Below are positions 35,381-43,624 of a DNA stretch of 64,000 nucleotides, in pieces. The notes under the pieces are model-generated. The model worked only from the letters and a program-made list of their open reading frames with translations, had not been told where the DNA came from and made no database searches. This DNA is from Gilvibacter sp. (lineage in GTDB: Bacteria > Bacteroidota > Bacteroidia > Flavobacteriales > Flavobacteriaceae): the NCBI RefSeq assembly GCF_013214815.1, contig NZ_JABSPU010000004.1, forward strand, positions 1 through 64,000, in the 5' to 3' direction. Made by a program: the position numbers and the translations under genes. Position 1 is the first letter of the stretch, and every line of letters begins with the position of its first letter.

Positions 35381-35743
35381 TTACTGATTTGTTTCTTCAA
35401 TTTCTATATCCGGTCCGACAGCCGTCGGGCTTACTTCTACAATTCTCTTGATAGTCAGGATGGAATCCCAACCTTCTGCATTGGCAGGTTTTGCCTCTAC
35501 CACAGCCTCCAGGGTTACCGGAACCATGTCAAAAGGCGTCTTTTGCCAATTCGCAGCCTTAGTGGCGAGTTCTTGAGTCATTGCATCGTTTTTGACCGTA
35601 TACATGACTTCATTTACTTCCAATACTGCATTGTCTTCAAAAAGCAAAAAGTTGCCTTTGTATTTTTTAGTGTCTGCAGATTGCTCTTCTGCACAGCTTG
35701 CCATTAGGGCAAATATGAAAAATAGAGTCGCTAGTTTTCTCAT
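35381..35743 (-). CDS. Unknown small lipoprotein between sufB and sufC
   Basis: 120 aa. Signal peptide with lipobox FALMASC (Cys at about 17), then a compact beta-rich domain ([34 protein letters not shown] in pieces; [26 protein letters not shown]) and an acidic tail (EIEETNQ). The pattern resembles small OB-like lipoproteins but I do not recognise the family with certainty. It is 2 bp after sufB and 1 bp before sufC, so it is a true operon member. Together with the META lipoprotein it makes two envelope proteins in a cytosolic Fe-S operon. Confidence 0.85.
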
Positions 35744-37657: not shown

Positions 37658-38737
37658 CTAGAATTCCGCGAAGCGATCGTCGAAGATAAAATTGTCGTCT
37701 GTCAGGGTTTTTAGAAAGGCGATGATCTGGGCTTTTTCTGCCTCAGTCAAAGGGATTCCCAAACTGCCGTCGGCGTTGCGCAATAGTGGGTCTAAGGTTG
37801 GGCTGTCAACGATGCCGTCGGAATAATGATCCAATACAGCCTCCAGATCTGGAATCCGACCGTCATGCATATAAGGGAAAGTCGCCTCAATATTACGGAG
37901 GCTCGGTACTTTGAATTTCAGGCTATCGCTAGGTTGTCCCGTAACGCGATAGCGCCCGATATCATTGAATTCAGGATCAATGCTCAGGCCATTGTTTCTA
38001 TAAGTTTGATCCGTTTGTAACACTCCAGAATGACAGCTGGAACACTTGGCTTCAAAGAGGCCTAAACCAGCTGTTTCGTCCGAGGTGAGGGTGGTTCCGT
38101 CGTTGCGTAAAAAGCGGTCGTACTTGCTATCTGCAGAGACCATCATCAGCATGAATTGAGACAACGCTTTTAAAATATTATCTGGGTCTATTTGCCCGTT
38201 GTCAAAGGCCGCAGCAAACATTTCAACATACTCAGGATCTTGACTCAGCGTAGTCACAATATTGTTGAAGGTATTGTTCATTTCGACCTCAGCGGTGATG
38301 GGTATAATTGGCTGAGCATCCAAGTGCCCAGCAGCGCCATCCCAGGTGAATTCTTGCATAAAAGCCAAATTGTGAAGCGGTTGCGCATTGCGTTTCCCAA
38401 TGGCGCCATTAACGCCGTGACTCGTAATGTGAGTATGGTGGGTAAAGGCAAAGGCTTGGATGTGACAGAATCCGCAGGAAACCACGCCATCAGAGGCCAA
38501 ACGTCCATCATAAAACAGCTTTTTACCAAGCACAAAACCGTTTTGAGTAGGTGGGTTTTGGCTCAGGTCGTACGTAAGATCCGGGAAGTAATCTGGGATT
38601 TCCAAAGTCAGCGCTACATCTACTTCTAGGGTCTCCTCTAAAGGGTCTTCAGCCACCGGCGCATCCTCATAGGGCTCGTTCTCCCCACAGGCGCTCAAAA
38701 GCACAATTAGAAATAATATGTAAAACTGTTTGATCAT
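37658..38737 (-). CDS. MauG/MbnH-like dihaem cytochrome c peroxidase family lipoprotein
   Basis: 359 aa lipoprotein (lipobox LLSACGEN). Two c-type haem sites, CGFCH (about residue 88) and CSSCH (about 232), with the family segments KLFYDGRLASDG, SCGFCHIQAFAF, GKRNAQPLHNLAF and FPYMHDGR. This is the CcpA/MauG/MbnH superfamily: some members reduce H2O2, others use bis-Fe(IV) haem to oxidise protein side chains. The gene just upstream (3 bp gap) encodes an MbnP-family protein. In methanotrophs MbnH converts an MbnP tryptophan to kynurenine, which is needed for copper binding. By analogy this enzyme is more likely an MbnH-type modifier than a classical peroxidase. It would be anchored in the envelope. 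Confidence 0.88.
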   Translation of the reverse strand: MIKQFYILFLIVLLSACGENEPYEDAPVAEDPLEETLEVDVALTLEIPDYFPDLTYDLSQNPPTQNGFVLGKKLFYDGRLASDGVVSCGFCHIQAFAFTHHTHITSHGVNGAIGKRNAQPLHNLAFMQEFTWDGAAGHLDAQPIIPITAEVEMNNTFNNIVTTLSQDPEYVEMFAAAFDNGQIDPDNILKALSQFMLMMVSADSKYDRFLRNDGTTLTSDETAGLGLFEAKCSSCHSGVLQTDQTYRNNGLSIDPEFNDIGRYRVTGQPSDSLKFKVPSLRNIEATFPYMHDGRIPDLEAVLDHYSDGIVDSPTLDPLLRNADGSLGIPLTEAEKAQIIAFLKTLTDDNFIFDDRFAEF

Positions 38738-38740
38738 GTT

Positions 38741-39487
38741 TTACTCTGTGGAAAAGGCTGTTGAAATATTACTGGCAATGATCGGTGCATAAACAGGGTC
38801 TACCTGAATATCATCCTTCTCCTGCAATGAAAAACTCTGAAGTCCGGCATCAAAAACTCGGGCAACATCAAATATGAGATTCACATTGTTGGTGTTATCG
38901 TTCACAGAGATGTCCGTGGACAGATCCAACTCAATAGTCTTATAATTGTCTAAAGTAGTTCCGTGGGAACCTACGTGAATGATAAAAGGTGCGTCAGTAC
39001 TAGTGTCTGTGTCATAATCCCCTTCAAATTTGATGAATTTATAACCTGCTGACCAGCTCCAAAGCATGCCTGTTTCTTCCGCAGTTGGAATAAAATTATT
39101 GACTCCGTTAAGTGGATAGTTGGATTGATCCACCCCAAAACCGAAACGGATCTTAGAGTATTTGCGCCCTTCAACTTCTGGGATGCTTAAGGTCTTGCTG
39201 CCGTTATCGGCTTCATTTACTACAAAATAGCTTTCACTTTGAGGCACAACAAATTCTTGTCCATTGGAACCAATAAGCACAATGTCGCTGATGATATACT
39301 TTAACTCGTTTACGCGATAAGATTCGCCAGAAGCGTTGGTATAGGTTTGTGAGGACAATATCAGATCATTGCCTGCAACTTGATTTTTAAATACGAGATT
39401 AACCTCCCCAGGAGCAGCCTGATTGTCATCTGATTTACAGCTAATTAAAGCTGCAACGGCAAAGGTTAAAAGGAATATCTTTTTCAT
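38741..39487 (-). CDS. MbnP-family (copper-binding type) lipoprotein
   Basis: 248 aa lipoprotein (lipobox AALISCKSDD). The domain shows family marks: VNLVFKNQVAGN, YRVNELKYIISDIVL, YFVVNEADNGSKTLSIPEVEGRKYSKIRFGFGVD (in parts), the WSWSAGYKFIKFEG tryptophan motif (about residues 140-155) and FIIHVGSH. MbnP proteins bind copper in the periplasm after a tryptophan is turned into kynurenine by MbnH; one W of the WSW motif is the natural candidate here. Histidine in IHVGSHG is a plausible copper ligand. The start shares a base with the preceding stop (TAATG), and the dihaem partner follows after 3 bp, so the two are surely co-expressed. Confidence 0.87.
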   Translation of the reverse strand: MKKIFLLTFAVAALISCKSDDNQAAPGEVNLVFKNQVAGNDLILSSQTYTNASGESYRVNELKYIISDIVLIGSNGQEFVVPQSESYFVVNEADNGSKTLSIPEVEGRKYSKIRFGFGVDQSNYPLNGVNNFIPTAEETGMLWSWSAGYKFIKFEGDYDTDTSTDAPFIIHVGSHGTTLDNYKTIELDLSTDISVNDNTNNVNLIFDVARVFDAGLQSFSLQEKDDIQVDPVYAPIIASNISTAFSTE

Positions 39488-40884
39488 TATTTATACTTTA
39501 CAATCAAGGCGTCTTTCCCGCCTTTGTTTAAACTAATATCGCCGTCAGAGCTGTCTGTATCGCCAACAACAATCAGTGCATTGGCACCAATAGGAGCGCA
39601 GTCGTTAAAGAGTTCAACTCCAGAACCGCCTCTGCTGTCTTGCCAAACCAAACTTCCTGAGGCTGTGGTCATAATAACCCATGCATCATTTTGGCCTTGA
39701 TTGATTCCGACTTGACCATCGCTACTTCTCGTAGTACCAGCCATAATGAGCTCTCCTGTGCCCATTTGATTCACTGCACGAGCCGACTCAAATAAGCTGC
39801 CTCCGTAGCTTTCTTCCCAGAGGAAGTTTCCGCTACTGTCAAAGGCCACCGCCCAAAGATCGGCATTGCCTTTAGGTGAAGAAACATCACCATCAGCACT
39901 GCGGCTGTCACCCACCATTACGTAAGTTCCCGGAGCAGATTCTACCAAACCATAGGCAATGTCAATTTCAGAGCCGCCAAAGGATTTTTCCCAAACCAGA
40001 TCTCCACTGTCGTTGATCTTTACGGCCCAATAGTCATAACTTCCTTTAGGATTGGTAACGTCAAAGTCATCGCTTTCTGAGGCTCCAGTCATCAGAAATC
40101 CTCCGTCTTGTGTTTGCAATACCTGATAGCTTCTGTCGTTATTGGTTCCGCCAAAGAAGCGTCTCCAAATGAGTTGGCCGTTGGCATCCAATCGCATGCC
40201 CCAGAACTCTCCCACTCCGTGCTTAGGTGCTGCTGAAGGAGCACTGGCAAAGCCGTCGTTTCCGGCGCCACCGCTGGCAGTAATGTCTAAAAATCCGCTT
40301 ACAAAATAGCCTCCGTCCGTAGTTTGAATCACGGAACTGGCCTGATCGCTACCCGCAAAACCATAACTCTGTTGCCATTGTACATCGCCGGAAGCTGAAA
40401 GTTTTACGATCCAATAATCTTGAAAGCCTGCATTTTCTGTGGCATCACCATCAGAAGATCGGCTAAACCCAGCTACCGCAAAACCACCATCGGTAGTTTC
40501 TATGATATCTGCCCCGCGATCATCGGAAGAACCACCATAAGTTCGGCTCCAAATTATTGCGCCGTTGGCATCGAGTTTCAAAACCCAATAGTCGCTGTCT
40601 GTTGCAGTTTTATCTGTTATATCGCCGTCATTGCTTTGGGTGTATCCCAAAACGGCAAAGCCTCCGTCTGTGGTGGTTACTACGGCATTAGCAATATCGT
40701 CTCCGGAGCCACCATAGGTGAATTGCCAGTCAACCACACCTTCAAAGTCGGCGGTCTGTCCACTGTCGTCAGTGGTGTCATCCGTTTGTCCGCTGTCGTC
40801 TGTATTGTCCGCAGGCAGATCGCTCTCAGAACAGCCGCCCAGGACAAAAACCAACAATAATATGTACCAATATTTGCGAATCAT
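39487..40884 (-). CDS. Seven-repeat propeller-like surface lipoprotein
   Basis: 465 aa. Lipobox VLGGCSESD, an Asp/Gly/Thr-rich spacer with an internal repeat (DDSGQTDDTTDDSGQT), then seven repeats of about 58 residues of the form W..(S/T)(Y/F)GGS..D.A..V..T.DGGF.V.G.S.S.DGD(V/I)....G..DYW.VKL...G. Each repeat resembles a beta-propeller blade with calcium-like DGD loops. The last reads NDCAPIGANALIVVGDTDSSDGD and ends KDALIVKYK. No enzyme motif is visible, so a binding or scaffold role on the cell surface is likely. It abuts the choice-of-anchor-B gene with no gap and overlaps the MbnP start by one base, so it belongs to the MbnP/MbnH operon. Confidence 0.85.
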   Translation of the reverse strand: MIRKYWYILLLVFVLGGCSESDLPADNTDDSGQTDDTTDDSGQTADFEGVVDWQFTYGGSGDDIANAVVTTTDGGFAVLGYTQSNDGDITDKTATDSDYWVLKLDANGAIIWSRTYGGSSDDRGADIIETTDGGFAVAGFSRSSDGDATENAGFQDYWIVKLSASGDVQWQQSYGFAGSDQASSVIQTTDGGYFVSGFLDITASGGAGNDGFASAPSAAPKHGVGEFWGMRLDANGQLIWRRFFGGTNNDRSYQVLQTQDGGFLMTGASESDDFDVTNPKGSYDYWAVKINDSGDLVWEKSFGGSEIDIAYGLVESAPGTYVMVGDSRSADGDVSSPKGNADLWAVAFDSSGNFLWEESYGGSLFESARAVNQMGTGELIMAGTTRSSDGQVGINQGQNDAWVIMTTASGSLVWQDSRGGSGVELFNDCAPIGANALIVVGDTDSSDGDISLNKGGKDALIVKYK

Positions 40885-42300
40885 CTATCGTTTCATCAGT
40901 TTTTGAACGGCTGCATCATTTACCTGAAGCACGTAAAATCCAGCAGATAGACCACTAACATCAATATTGATCGCGTCAAGGCCATTTGTGAATTCTAAGT
41001 CTTTAACCAACTGTCCTGTGAGGTTAAAGATCTGAACATGCTCAATTGGGGCGCCGTATTGAACCGTTAGTTGTTCTTGCATTGGATTCGGATAAGCCAT
41101 TGCCTCTAAGATCTCTTGATCAACAGTACTTAGAACACTATTATCTCGAACTAAAAAGAATCCATTGTCTTGATCGGAAACCACGATGTTTCCACTCTCA
41201 AAGAATGGATAGACATTCCAGGATCCATTTCCAGTACCAGCACTATCGCTGCTTGGCCAGGTGTCAAAATAGTGGGATTCCACTATCGTTCCGGAGTCAA
41301 TCCCAGTGAGGTCTAGAATACGCAATCCCGCGCGGTAACTCGCTAAATAGAATTGATCCCCAACAACATATCCGTTGTGGTCTGTGGATGGATTTTGACT
41401 GAAATAATTAAAGGCAAATTCTGGATTGTCCAGGTCAGACACATCAAAAATGATTGTTTTTGTTTCAAATCCGAAGATGATCTCATCTACCTCATCAGCC
41501 AATAAGAAATAACGCTGATCTTCTGTCAGCCAACCCTGGTGAGTATATCCAATGTCACTGTAGTTCACTGCCGAAAGTAAGATGGGATTGTCCTTGTCAG
41601 TCACATCAACAATAACAACTACGTCTTCATTGCTTCCAAAGAAGAGTTCTTTTCCTGTGTGTGTGCCGTCAGGTCCACTGTAGGTAACAATTTGCGCATC
41701 GTGGGTATAACCGCTATCGGCATAACCTCGCGCAAACTGAGGGCTTAATGGAGATTGAATGTTGACCATATGAATTCCACCACTAAAGGTGTCGGTTCCT
41801 ATGGCGTAGGCAAAGCCTGTGTCTTCATTGATGGCAATATTGTGTGCGCTTCCAAATCCTGAGTAATGCGCATCTTCATCAAAGATGACCGGAGGACTAC
41901 TCACAGTTCTAAGTCGGGTCAGATCAAATACCTGCATACCGTGACCGTCAGCTTCACTGACAATAAAGGCGTGGTTGGCATAGACCTTAATATCGCGCCA
42001 AATGCTCGGGTCGGTAAAGGTGGGAAGCTTTCCTAAGTAGACTACATCCAAGGGATCGGTCACATCTACAAAGGCAGTTCCGTTACTCAGACCAATAATG
42101 GCGTATTCACCACCGGTTTCCGGATCGGTCCAACCCCAATTGTCATTGGCCAAACTGGCATCGAAGTCGGTTAAGGGAATTCGATCCATCAAATCGAGGC
42201 CTTCACAAGGAAAACCATCGGCAGAACCAGATTCACAAGGGATCTGGCCCATGACCAGATTAGTGCTTATAAAAAGCAGCGCGAGTAATGTCTTTTTCAT
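40885..42300 (-). CDS. Choice-of-anchor-B family protein with T9SS sorting domain
   Basis: 471 aa. Signal peptide (MKKTLLALLFISTNLVMGQ), then the choice-of-anchor-B domain made of LVIVD-like blades (FVDVTDPLDVVYLGKLPT, WRDIKVYANHAFIVSEADGHGMQVFDLTRL, GSAHNIAINEDTGFAYAIGT, THDAQIVTYSGPD, YTHQGWLTEDQRYFLLADE, DHNGYVVGDQFYLASYRAGLRI). Several invariant histidines (GHGM, SAHN, THDA, THQGW, DHNGY) could bind metal. The last about 75 residues are a type A Por-secretion domain (AYPNPMQEQLTV..., GFYVLQVNDAAVQKLMKR), so it is exported by T9SS. It is a tandem paralogue of the next gene, which is instead a lipoprotein. Confidence 0.9.
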   Translation of the reverse strand: MKKTLLALLFISTNLVMGQIPCESGSADGFPCEGLDLMDRIPLTDFDASLANDNWGWTDPETGGEYAIIGLSNGTAFVDVTDPLDVVYLGKLPTFTDPSIWRDIKVYANHAFIVSEADGHGMQVFDLTRLRTVSSPPVIFDEDAHYSGFGSAHNIAINEDTGFAYAIGTDTFSGGIHMVNIQSPLSPQFARGYADSGYTHDAQIVTYSGPDGTHTGKELFFGSNEDVVVIVDVTDKDNPILLSAVNYSDIGYTHQGWLTEDQRYFLLADEVDEIIFGFETKTIIFDVSDLDNPEFAFNYFSQNPSTDHNGYVVGDQFYLASYRAGLRILDLTGIDSGTIVESHYFDTWPSSDSAGTGNGSWNVYPFFESGNIVVSDQDNGFFLVRDNSVLSTVDQEILEAMAYPNPMQEQLTVQYGAPIEHVQIFNLTGQLVKDLEFTNGLDAINIDVSGLSAGFYVLQVNDAAVQKLMKR

Positions 42301-42349
42301 GAAATAGCAATTAGTATGCTAATTTAAAACAAATTAGTCGGGTCTTACC

Positions 42350-43624
42350 CTACTGCCTTGCAACGATAAATAGGCCGCCAGAAATATCACTAACAATGAT
42401 ATTACCGCTGGGCAGGTATGGATAGACACTCCAAACTCCGTTAAAGGAGGCGTCGTCGTTGTCTGGATAGGTGTCAAAAAAAGCGAGCTCTGTCATTGAA
42501 GCTGAAGCTATATCGCTGAGATCAATTTGTCGGATTCCCGCCGTGTAATTGGCCAGGTAAAAATCGTTGTTCAGCACATAACCGTTGTGGTCAATGGCAA
42601 AGGTTGGTCCCAAATAAGTAGTGTGGACTGCAGGAGTGTCCAGATCAGAAAAATCAAAAACTATGGTTCTGCTTCTGGTGCCAATTTGAACTTCGTCCAA
42701 TTCATCACCTAGTAAGAAGTGGCGTTGATCTTCAGTAAACCATCCTTGATGCGTATAACCGACATTGGTGTATCCTATAGTAGATAAGGCTATCGGATTG
42801 GTTTTGTCGGTAATGTCCACAATAACGATCTCGTCTTCATTACTGCCTATAAATATTTCTTTGCCCAAGTGTTCAGTATCCGGACCATTGTAAGTCACTA
42901 CCTGAGCGTCATGGGTATAATTACCGTCTGCATATCCACCTTCAACTACCGGATTAATAGGATCTTGAATATTGATAAAAAGCGGTCCTCCCTCAAAATC
43001 ACTGGCTCCAACCGCATAGGCGTAACCTGTATCTTCATTGATCACAATATTATGAGCGCTTCCAAATTCTGTCAATAAGGCGTCTGCACTAAAGATTTCT
43101 GGAGGGCTGCTAACATCGCGGAGTTTGGTCAGATCAAAAACTTGCATGCCGTGACCAGAAGCTTCTGCCACAATAAAAGCATGGTCGTTGAATACCTTGA
43201 TATCGCGCCAATTACTCGAGGTTGAGGCTGTGGGTAATTTTCCTAAATAGAGGGGATTGGAAGGACTGGTGATGTCCACAAAAGCGGTACCGTTATTCAG
43301 TCCCATTAAGGCGTATTCCCTACCTGTAGCAGGATCTACCCAACCCCAAGAGTCGTTTCCGCGAGTGGCTGAAAAAAGTTCGATGGGAATCTGGCTCATT
43401 AAATTCATTCCAGAACAGGGATAAACACCGGCTTGTCCGCCTTCACAGGCTAAAAATCCAATGATGCTTGGGCCATCGTCAACAGGATCACCACCTGTGT
43501 TGTCGTCATCATTGGTTACGGGGTCTGTAGGACGGCTGTCATCCGAAGAACAACTGCTTAGCCCAACAAGGCTGAGAGACGCCATTAGCATCCCAAATAC
43601 TAGTTTAGTCTTTAAAGTTACCAT
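42350..43624 (-). CDS. Choice-of-anchor-B family lipoprotein
   Basis: 424 aa. Lipobox LVGLSSCSSDD, an Asp/Thr/Gly-rich spacer (PTDPVTNDDDNTGGDPVDDGP), then the same choice-of-anchor-B blades as its downstream paralogue: WRDIKVFNDHAFIVAEASGHGMQVFDLTKL, GSAHNIVINEDTG, YTHDAQVVTYNGPD, YTHQGWFTEDQRHFLLGDE, IDHNGYVLNNDFYLANYTAGIRQIDL (quoted in parts). It has no sorting domain and ends SGGLFIVARQ. The two copies look like a tandem duplication with different anchoring: lipid here, T9SS there. It is first in the five-gene MbnP/MbnH operon and is divergent from thiL across 45 bp. Confidence 0.9.
   Translation of the reverse strand: MVTLKTKLVFGMLMASLSLVGLSSCSSDDSRPTDPVTNDDDNTGGDPVDDGPSIIGFLACEGGQAGVYPCSGMNLMSQIPIELFSATRGNDSWGWVDPATGREYALMGLNNGTAFVDITSPSNPLYLGKLPTASTSSNWRDIKVFNDHAFIVAEASGHGMQVFDLTKLRDVSSPPEIFSADALLTEFGSAHNIVINEDTGYAYAVGASDFEGGPLFINIQDPINPVVEGGYADGNYTHDAQVVTYNGPDTEHLGKEIFIGSNEDEIVIVDITDKTNPIALSTIGYTNVGYTHQGWFTEDQRHFLLGDELDEVQIGTRSRTIVFDFSDLDTPAVHTTYLGPTFAIDHNGYVLNNDFYLANYTAGIRQIDLSDIASASMTELAFFDTYPDNDDASFNGVWSVYPYLPSGNIIVSDISGGLFIVARQ

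Follow-up and report, generated by a model that had tools for sequence, protein, structure and literature searches.

The stretch of DNA analysed here (the window; 64,000 nucleotides, positions 1 to 64,000 of contig NZ_JABSPU010000004.1, RefSeq assembly GCF_013214815.1) comes from Gilvibacter sp., a member of the Flavobacteriaceae, and encodes two choice-of-anchor-B propeller proteins (ChB1 and ChB2), a further propeller lipoprotein (SBBP), an MbnP-family lipoprotein and a dihaem protein of the MbnH/MauG type. We find that genes for choice-of-anchor-B (ChB) and SBBP proteins form a core unit, to which about two thirds of the genomes with SBBP add the MbnP and MbnH pair (MbnPH); the arrangement ChB-SBBP-MbnP-MbnH is referred to below as the cassette. 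We give slightly better than even credence to the proposal that the cassette is a surface operon specific to Flavobacteriaceae, whose MbnP would be a kynurenine-copper protein that joins the propellers in handling metal at the cell surface.

The five genes lie on the minus strand and are tightly packed between thiL on one side and the suf operon on the other, with spacings of 49, 0, -1 and 3 bp from first to fifth gene; they are presumably co-transcribed. A first-pass annotation of the window had described five closely spaced genes on one strand, and both their coordinates and their families were borne out, as were the motifs it had picked out in the translations (WSWSAGY, two CxxCH, GHGM, SAHN, THDA, THQGW and DHNGY). 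Its statement that methanobactin genes are missing also agrees with our search, which detected no MbnB-type MNIO gene (PF05114) in the source assembly, a 3.0 Mb draft that is 93% complete. This genome contains one MbnP gene. No Rfam regulatory RNAs were found within the window, and scans for sigma-70-type promoters and terminators returned matches at chance level only.

Conservation of the locus was followed through 201 Flavobacteriaceae genomes, almost one per genus. MbnP was present in 100 and choice-of-anchor-B in 111, while SBBP, a single-copy orthologue seen only in Flavobacteriaceae, was present in 100. Among the matches listed, PF20243 (MbnP) and TIGR04312 (choice-of-anchor-B) lay at most 8 kb apart in 66 of the 71 genomes with both, compared with about 0.6 expected by chance. 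Neighbourhoods were viewed at 80 MbnP loci, at 80 SBBP loci (named genomes) and at 20 loci of unlinked choice-of-anchor-B genes, and at all 20 of the last SBBP adjoins ChB. Gene order is fixed: one to several copies of ChB followed by SBBP, MbnP and MbnH, or ChB-SBBP alone, or MbnP-MbnH alone. Beyond the Flavobacteriaceae, MbnP and choice-of-anchor-B are both common, yet no cassette was seen.

Ten genomes carry both a cassette and a separate MbnP (in G125 possibly one gene split across contigs), which argues against redundancy. The MbnH tree hinted that the cassette had recruited MbnPH on two separate occasions; this was not established, since recruitment on one occasion was not rejected by the approximately unbiased (AU) test (MbnH, p 0.65; MbnP, p 0.22). 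The cassette SBBPs, which bear on the choice between single and double recruitment, form one clade. Two variations in composition were observed. Cassettes of Kordia contain a Reg_prop/Y_Y_Y histidine kinase and a LuxR-type response regulator between MbnP and MbnH (L035 7256-10671, L149 8196-11611, L167 8420-11835), and in Aquimarina (L123, L139) SBBP is duplicated in tandem.

The MbnP of the window passed the PF20243 cut-off (142.6 against 27 bits) and missed that of the equivalog family TIGR04052, MbnP_like_WxW (50.9 against 140 bits); its neighbour missed the cut-off of the MbnH equivalog, TIGR04039 (227 against 363 bits). By these scores the two proteins are best classed as relatives of the methanotroph-type proteins, outside their equivalogs. 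An AlphaFold (AF2) model of MbnP, with a predicted local distance difference test (pLDDT) score of 89, was compared with the PDB using Foldseek, and at E <0.001 it matched only the six chains of 7l6g, MbnP of Methylosinus trichosporium (E 4.6e-8, prob 1.0). A profile of family MbnPs aligns with 7l6g at GMAWNW and HVGS. Once mature, the window protein contains a single Met, M141; its two Trp are W143 and W145 and its two His are H171 and H175. All of these except H175 are conserved and align with 7l6g. In the M. trichosporium protein, Manesis et al. are said to have reported in 2021, MbnH turns the first Trp of the WxW motif into kynurenine, and copper is bound through His and Met, which we take to be the ligands in 7l6g. 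Cassette MbnPs as a whole fall into two classes: 40 share the MxWxW motif of the window protein, and the other 60 show a divergent pattern, W-x-[VW]-P...GGGYH...H. As a separate observation, cassettes L060, L104 and L110 have Phe in place of the first MbnP Trp; the dihaem partners of the GGGYH class retain their haem motifs and Y305.

The dihaem protein matches MbnH 6e1c at 1.8e-43 directly and at 4.4e-72 with a profile. None of the 100 aligned cassette enzymes departs from the two CxxCH motifs, W132, E152 or Y305. Y305 aligns directly with the corresponding Tyr of 6e1c, and with MauG Y294 by way of the alignment end points (307 to 296); the counterpart of W132 is presumably MauG W93. In MauG and MbnH the second haem has a Tyr as its distal ligand, whereas bacterial peroxidases have Met at this position, and the window protein carries the MauG/MbnH signature and not the peroxidase Met. 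With the PF20243 cut-off passed, 6e1c matched, and the copper-site and dihaem signatures intact, the MbnP/MbnH-type pair named in the first-pass annotation stands.

Features of the five-gene locus (positions in the window)
Feature	Positions	Strand	Evidence
ChB1, choice-of-anchor-B seven-bladed propeller lipoprotein, 424 aa	42350..43624	-	TIGR04312 6e-169, 562 bits
ChB2, choice-of-anchor-B propeller with T9SS (type IX secretion system) tail, 471 aa	40885..42300	-	TIGR04312 3.6e-156, 520 bits; TIGR04183; PF18962
SBBP, seven-repeat propeller lipoprotein, 465 aa	39487..40884	-	weak LipL53/SBBP match; CylK propeller in PDB 3e-21
SBBP Q155...S179-D-Q181, equivalent to the His positions (GFHD...GHDH) of orthologues without MbnPH	40342..40422	-	orthologue comparison
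SBBP H222 (HGVGEFW), shared by every orthologue	40219..40221	-	orthologue comparison
MbnP-family lipoprotein, 248 aa	38741..39487	-	PF20243 1.8e-41
MbnP M141-L-W143-S-W145, with the Met predicted to bind Cu and the WxW whose first Trp is the predicted kynurenine	39053..39067	-	alignment with 7l6g GMAWNW
MbnP H171 (HVGSHG), predicted Cu ligand His	38975..38977	-	present in each of the 81 aligned MbnPs of the family
MbnH/MauG-type dihaem lipoprotein, 359 aa	37658..38737	-	PF03150 CCP_MauG 6.6e-50; best PDB match MbnH 6e1c
First haem motif C88-x-x-C-H92	38462..38476	-	translation; invariant in cassettes
Second haem motif C232-x-x-C-H236	38030..38044	-	translation; invariant in cassettes
W132, inter-haem Trp equivalent	38342..38344	-	invariant in cassettes
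Y305, aligned with MauG Y294 and MbnH Tyr	37823..37825	-	invariant in all 100 cassette MbnHs

SBBP differs between loci with and without MbnPH. Orthologues that lack an adjacent MbnPH have three extra invariant His, in GF-H-D and G-H-D-H, besides the His of HGVGEFW. In the set used for the SBBP tree the extra His occur in 38 of 38 proteins without MbnPH and in none of 66 with it. Once noticed, the rule was put to the test at 20 further loci, where GHDH was found in 12 of 12 SBBPs without MbnPH and in 0 of 7 with it (one locus had no detectable SBBP; the other 19 are counted within the 38 and 66). The MbnPH-bearing orthologues form one clade on the SBBP tree (97%), so the pattern reflects one evolutionary switch; it is descriptively strong and statistically weak, since a single event cannot be replicated. 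SBBP paralogues and relatives from outside the family do not have the motif and thus do not polarise the switch; a tree that unites the SBBPs without MbnP in one clade was not rejected. These sequence differences suggest that MbnPH and a metal site in the propeller stand in for one another, with the extra His of SBBP as putative metal ligands.

Both choice-of-anchor-B proteins of the window passed the TIGR04312 cut-off of 100 bits, as full-length members, and an AF2 model of ChB1 (pLDDT 86) is a propeller. Five of its His (H158, H191, H238, H292 and H346), about one per blade, are invariant, as are many acidic residues. The first-pass annotation had taken GHGM, SAHN, THDA, THQGW and DHNGY to tie the propellers to the metal pair. 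This argument failed, as the same five His are kept almost as strictly by distant choice-of-anchor-B members that belong to other families and classes of the phylum and have no linked MbnP; they are a trait of the choice-of-anchor-B family. Together with the acidic residues they suggest a family-wide metal or catalytic centre rather than a copper link of the operon, and the His of SBBP would be the better pointer to shared metal handling. The closest PDB fold to ChB is the Sphingobium TCM1 phosphotriesterase (5hrm, 7e-11), at 11-12% identity and a template modelling (TM) score of 0.54-0.58, barely above WD40 proteins. Kinship in sequence to solved propellers was sought and rejected, the profile matches falling on the T9SS tail.

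A surface location is predicted for these proteins. Among cassette proteins with a recognised lipobox, at least two acidic residues stand just after the lipobox Cys (Cys+3/+4) in 86 of 89 MbnPs and 89 of 103 SBBPs, which fits the surface lipoprotein export signal of Bacteroidota, including SDDFE in Flavobacterium johnsoniae (PMC5080379). In the window, MbnP has the export-signal-like sequence CKSDDN, and the lipobox SSC of ChB1 is followed by SSDDS, which is likewise export-signal-like. ChB proteins are anchored either by lipid or by a T9SS tail, the tail being present in 23 of 38 sampled; in ChB2 the sorting domain occupies residues about 403-470.

On these features, the mechanism that we consider most likely runs as follows. 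The dihaem enzyme, MbnH-like with a MauG-type centre and Y305, would convert W143 of its neighbour MbnP into kynurenine by oxidation. As an outer-membrane lipoprotein, MbnP would then hold one Cu(I) through M141 and H171 beside the kynurenine, and this site, alongside the propellers made with it, would be used to handle metal at the cell surface. Where a lineage has no MbnPH, SBBP has three to four conserved His of its own; it seems that MbnPH either assumed a metal-binding role of the propeller unit or gave way to it. A broader version, which we regard as rather unlikely, would make ChB-SBBP a surface metalloprotein unit that obtains metal either through a built-in SBBP His cluster (GFHD, GHDH, HGVGEFW) or through a kynurenine-copper protein from MbnP/MbnH, swapped once in the Flavobacteriaceae, with the GGGYH MbnP as a further type of copper site with two His.

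Several observations weigh against a kynurenine-copper operon. Copper binding and kynurenine are predictions; in 60 of the 100 cassettes MbnP is of the GGGYH class, without the Met of the MxWxW motif, and in four of these 60 the first Trp is Phe. The propeller His are ruled out as evidence for copper by their invariance in distant family members. None of the cassette genes was recognised as belonging to a known family of copper transporters or regulators, and a role in supplying copper to nitrous oxide reductase was rejected for want of any association (NosZ 49%, against 53% in genomes with neither). MbnPH is not beside SBBP in 32 of the 100 SBBP genomes, and at 43 of 111 MbnP places it stands without propellers, so neither partner needs the other. 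The single switch on the SBBP tree could be the coincidence of one lineage split. Finally, the linkage is in part inherited synteny, because most copies sit at one chromosomal site, the window included: thiL (divergent), then the cassette, upstream of suf and on its strand, then sufA and sufB. This last point admits an explanation that we consider doubtful though worth weighing, namely that propellers and MbnPH are functionally unrelated and kept together by inheritance of a thiL-suf block. The site is the same in most genomes, thiL and suf have no obvious function in common with the cassette, and ChB-SBBP occurs without MbnPH in 32 genomes. However, median gaps inside the cassette are 7, 10 and 6 bp, often with one-base overlaps, against flanks of 138 bp (thiL-ChB) and 154 bp (MbnH-sufA), and the cassette is whole where thiL or suf neighbours are missing (e.g. 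L087, L117, L123, L147, L161, L171); synteny is thus not the whole explanation. Block inheritance would also not anticipate the specific alteration of SBBP where MbnPH is absent.

Two further explanations concern the chemistry, and to each we assign little probability. The dihaem protein could be a MauG-like oxidase of Trp or Tyr in the propellers, or a peroxidase, with MbnP a mere scaffold. The propellers have many invariant Trp and Tyr, and the first Trp is missing from MbnP in four cassettes, yet 60 of 60 MbnHs of that class retain the haem motifs and Y305; however, propellers are also found where the dihaem gene is missing, MbnP and that gene accompany each other in the complete loci viewed, and a plain peroxidase is at odds with a distal Tyr in place of Met. 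Equally improbable is a metal other than copper, whereby choice-of-anchor-B would be a metal-dependent propeller hydrolase and the operon would handle Mn, Zn or Fe. The TCM1 phosphotriesterase, the best fold match of ChB, is a binuclear metal enzyme, and the roughly one invariant His per blade with invariant acidic residues would suit such a site. Nevertheless, many non-metal propellers score nearly as well at these TM values and identities, no sequence kinship of ChB to 5hrm was found, and MbnP relatives with Met, His and WxW reportedly bind Cu(I). A kynurenine-copper operon remains the reading that we prefer: of the earlier proposal that the pair and the propellers handle metal together, the MbnP/MbnH-type pair in a conserved operon with surface propellers has survived, and the argument from the propeller His has not.

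The cassette shares with M. trichosporium MbnP/MbnH (7l6g, 6e1c) adjacent genes, the MbnP fold, MxWxW...HVGS and a dihaem enzyme with a MauG-type Tyr. In contrast to that pair, the window proteins are lipoproteins encoded behind propeller genes, without methanobactin genes and below the equivalog cut-offs, and the window MbnP, with one Cys, lacks the four-Cys motif for which 7l6g was named on deposition ('four-Cys motif protein'). That conserved MbnPH pairs exist outside methanotrophs had been described earlier (PMC3621798). MopE/SACCP and CorA/CorB of methanotrophs likewise combine a surface copper protein and a dihaem partner, with a Trp-derived kynurenine at the copper site (PMC3912023); they belong to another protein family than MbnP and use a two-His ligand set. 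The GGGYH class of MbnP, by analogy, resembles the CorA set of two His and kynurenine, as two His are invariant in 18 aligned members and a Trp is usually present. ChB1 and ChB2 share full length and variable anchors, lipid or T9SS tail, with the choice-of-anchor-B family at large; here, unlike elsewhere, they are often in tandem and beside SBBP, with MbnPH in two thirds of SBBP genomes.

Stand-alone Flavobacteriaceae pairs (L072, L076, L042 and others) belong to the same families, have MxWxW and include the closest MbnH relatives outside cassettes. They differ from the cassette in having a Cys-motif small protein before them and often a CDVCGCG protein after, in wider spacing and in the lack of propellers. 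The small protein, of the CxGKC type, lies upstream in 36 of 42 loci, the CDVCGCG protein downstream in 28, and nine loci have a TonB receptor with a YtkA-like lipoprotein ahead of it. In other bacteria, MbnPH-like genes occur in copper operons led by a small protein (PMC9426467), and by this analogy the stand-alone neighbourhood is of a copper type. The small protein (123 aa, CxNKxxPxxxCxGKCxL; L047 11124-11495, minus strand, and 35 other loci) is without a Pfam match and may act as a leader protein that senses or binds copper. Also without a Pfam match is the 300-aa protein directly downstream of stand-alone MbnH, which starts with CDVCGCG after its signal peptide (L062 8439-9341, plus strand, and 27 other loci).

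A handful of methanotroph proteins are known to use protein-bound kynurenine as a copper ligand. The present analysis predicts this rare chemistry for about a third of the sampled Flavobacteriaceae genera, in one fixed operon with surface propellers. No link between propellers and MbnP was found in the literature searched, within which the fixed operon that includes ChB and SBBP, the GGGYH class of MbnP and the SBBP His-or-MbnP pattern appear to be new. That pattern offers a handle on the roles of the propellers and of MbnP outside methanotrophs. Many carriers are named isolates (Aquimarina, Aequorivita, Kordia, Dokdonia, Ulvibacter and Psychroflexus), and the predicted chemistry is open to testing. 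As a minor observation on the neighbouring suf operon, a 120-aa lipoprotein without a family match is encoded between sufB and sufC (window 35381-35743, minus strand), and open reading frames of similar size occupy the same place in L134 and L169.

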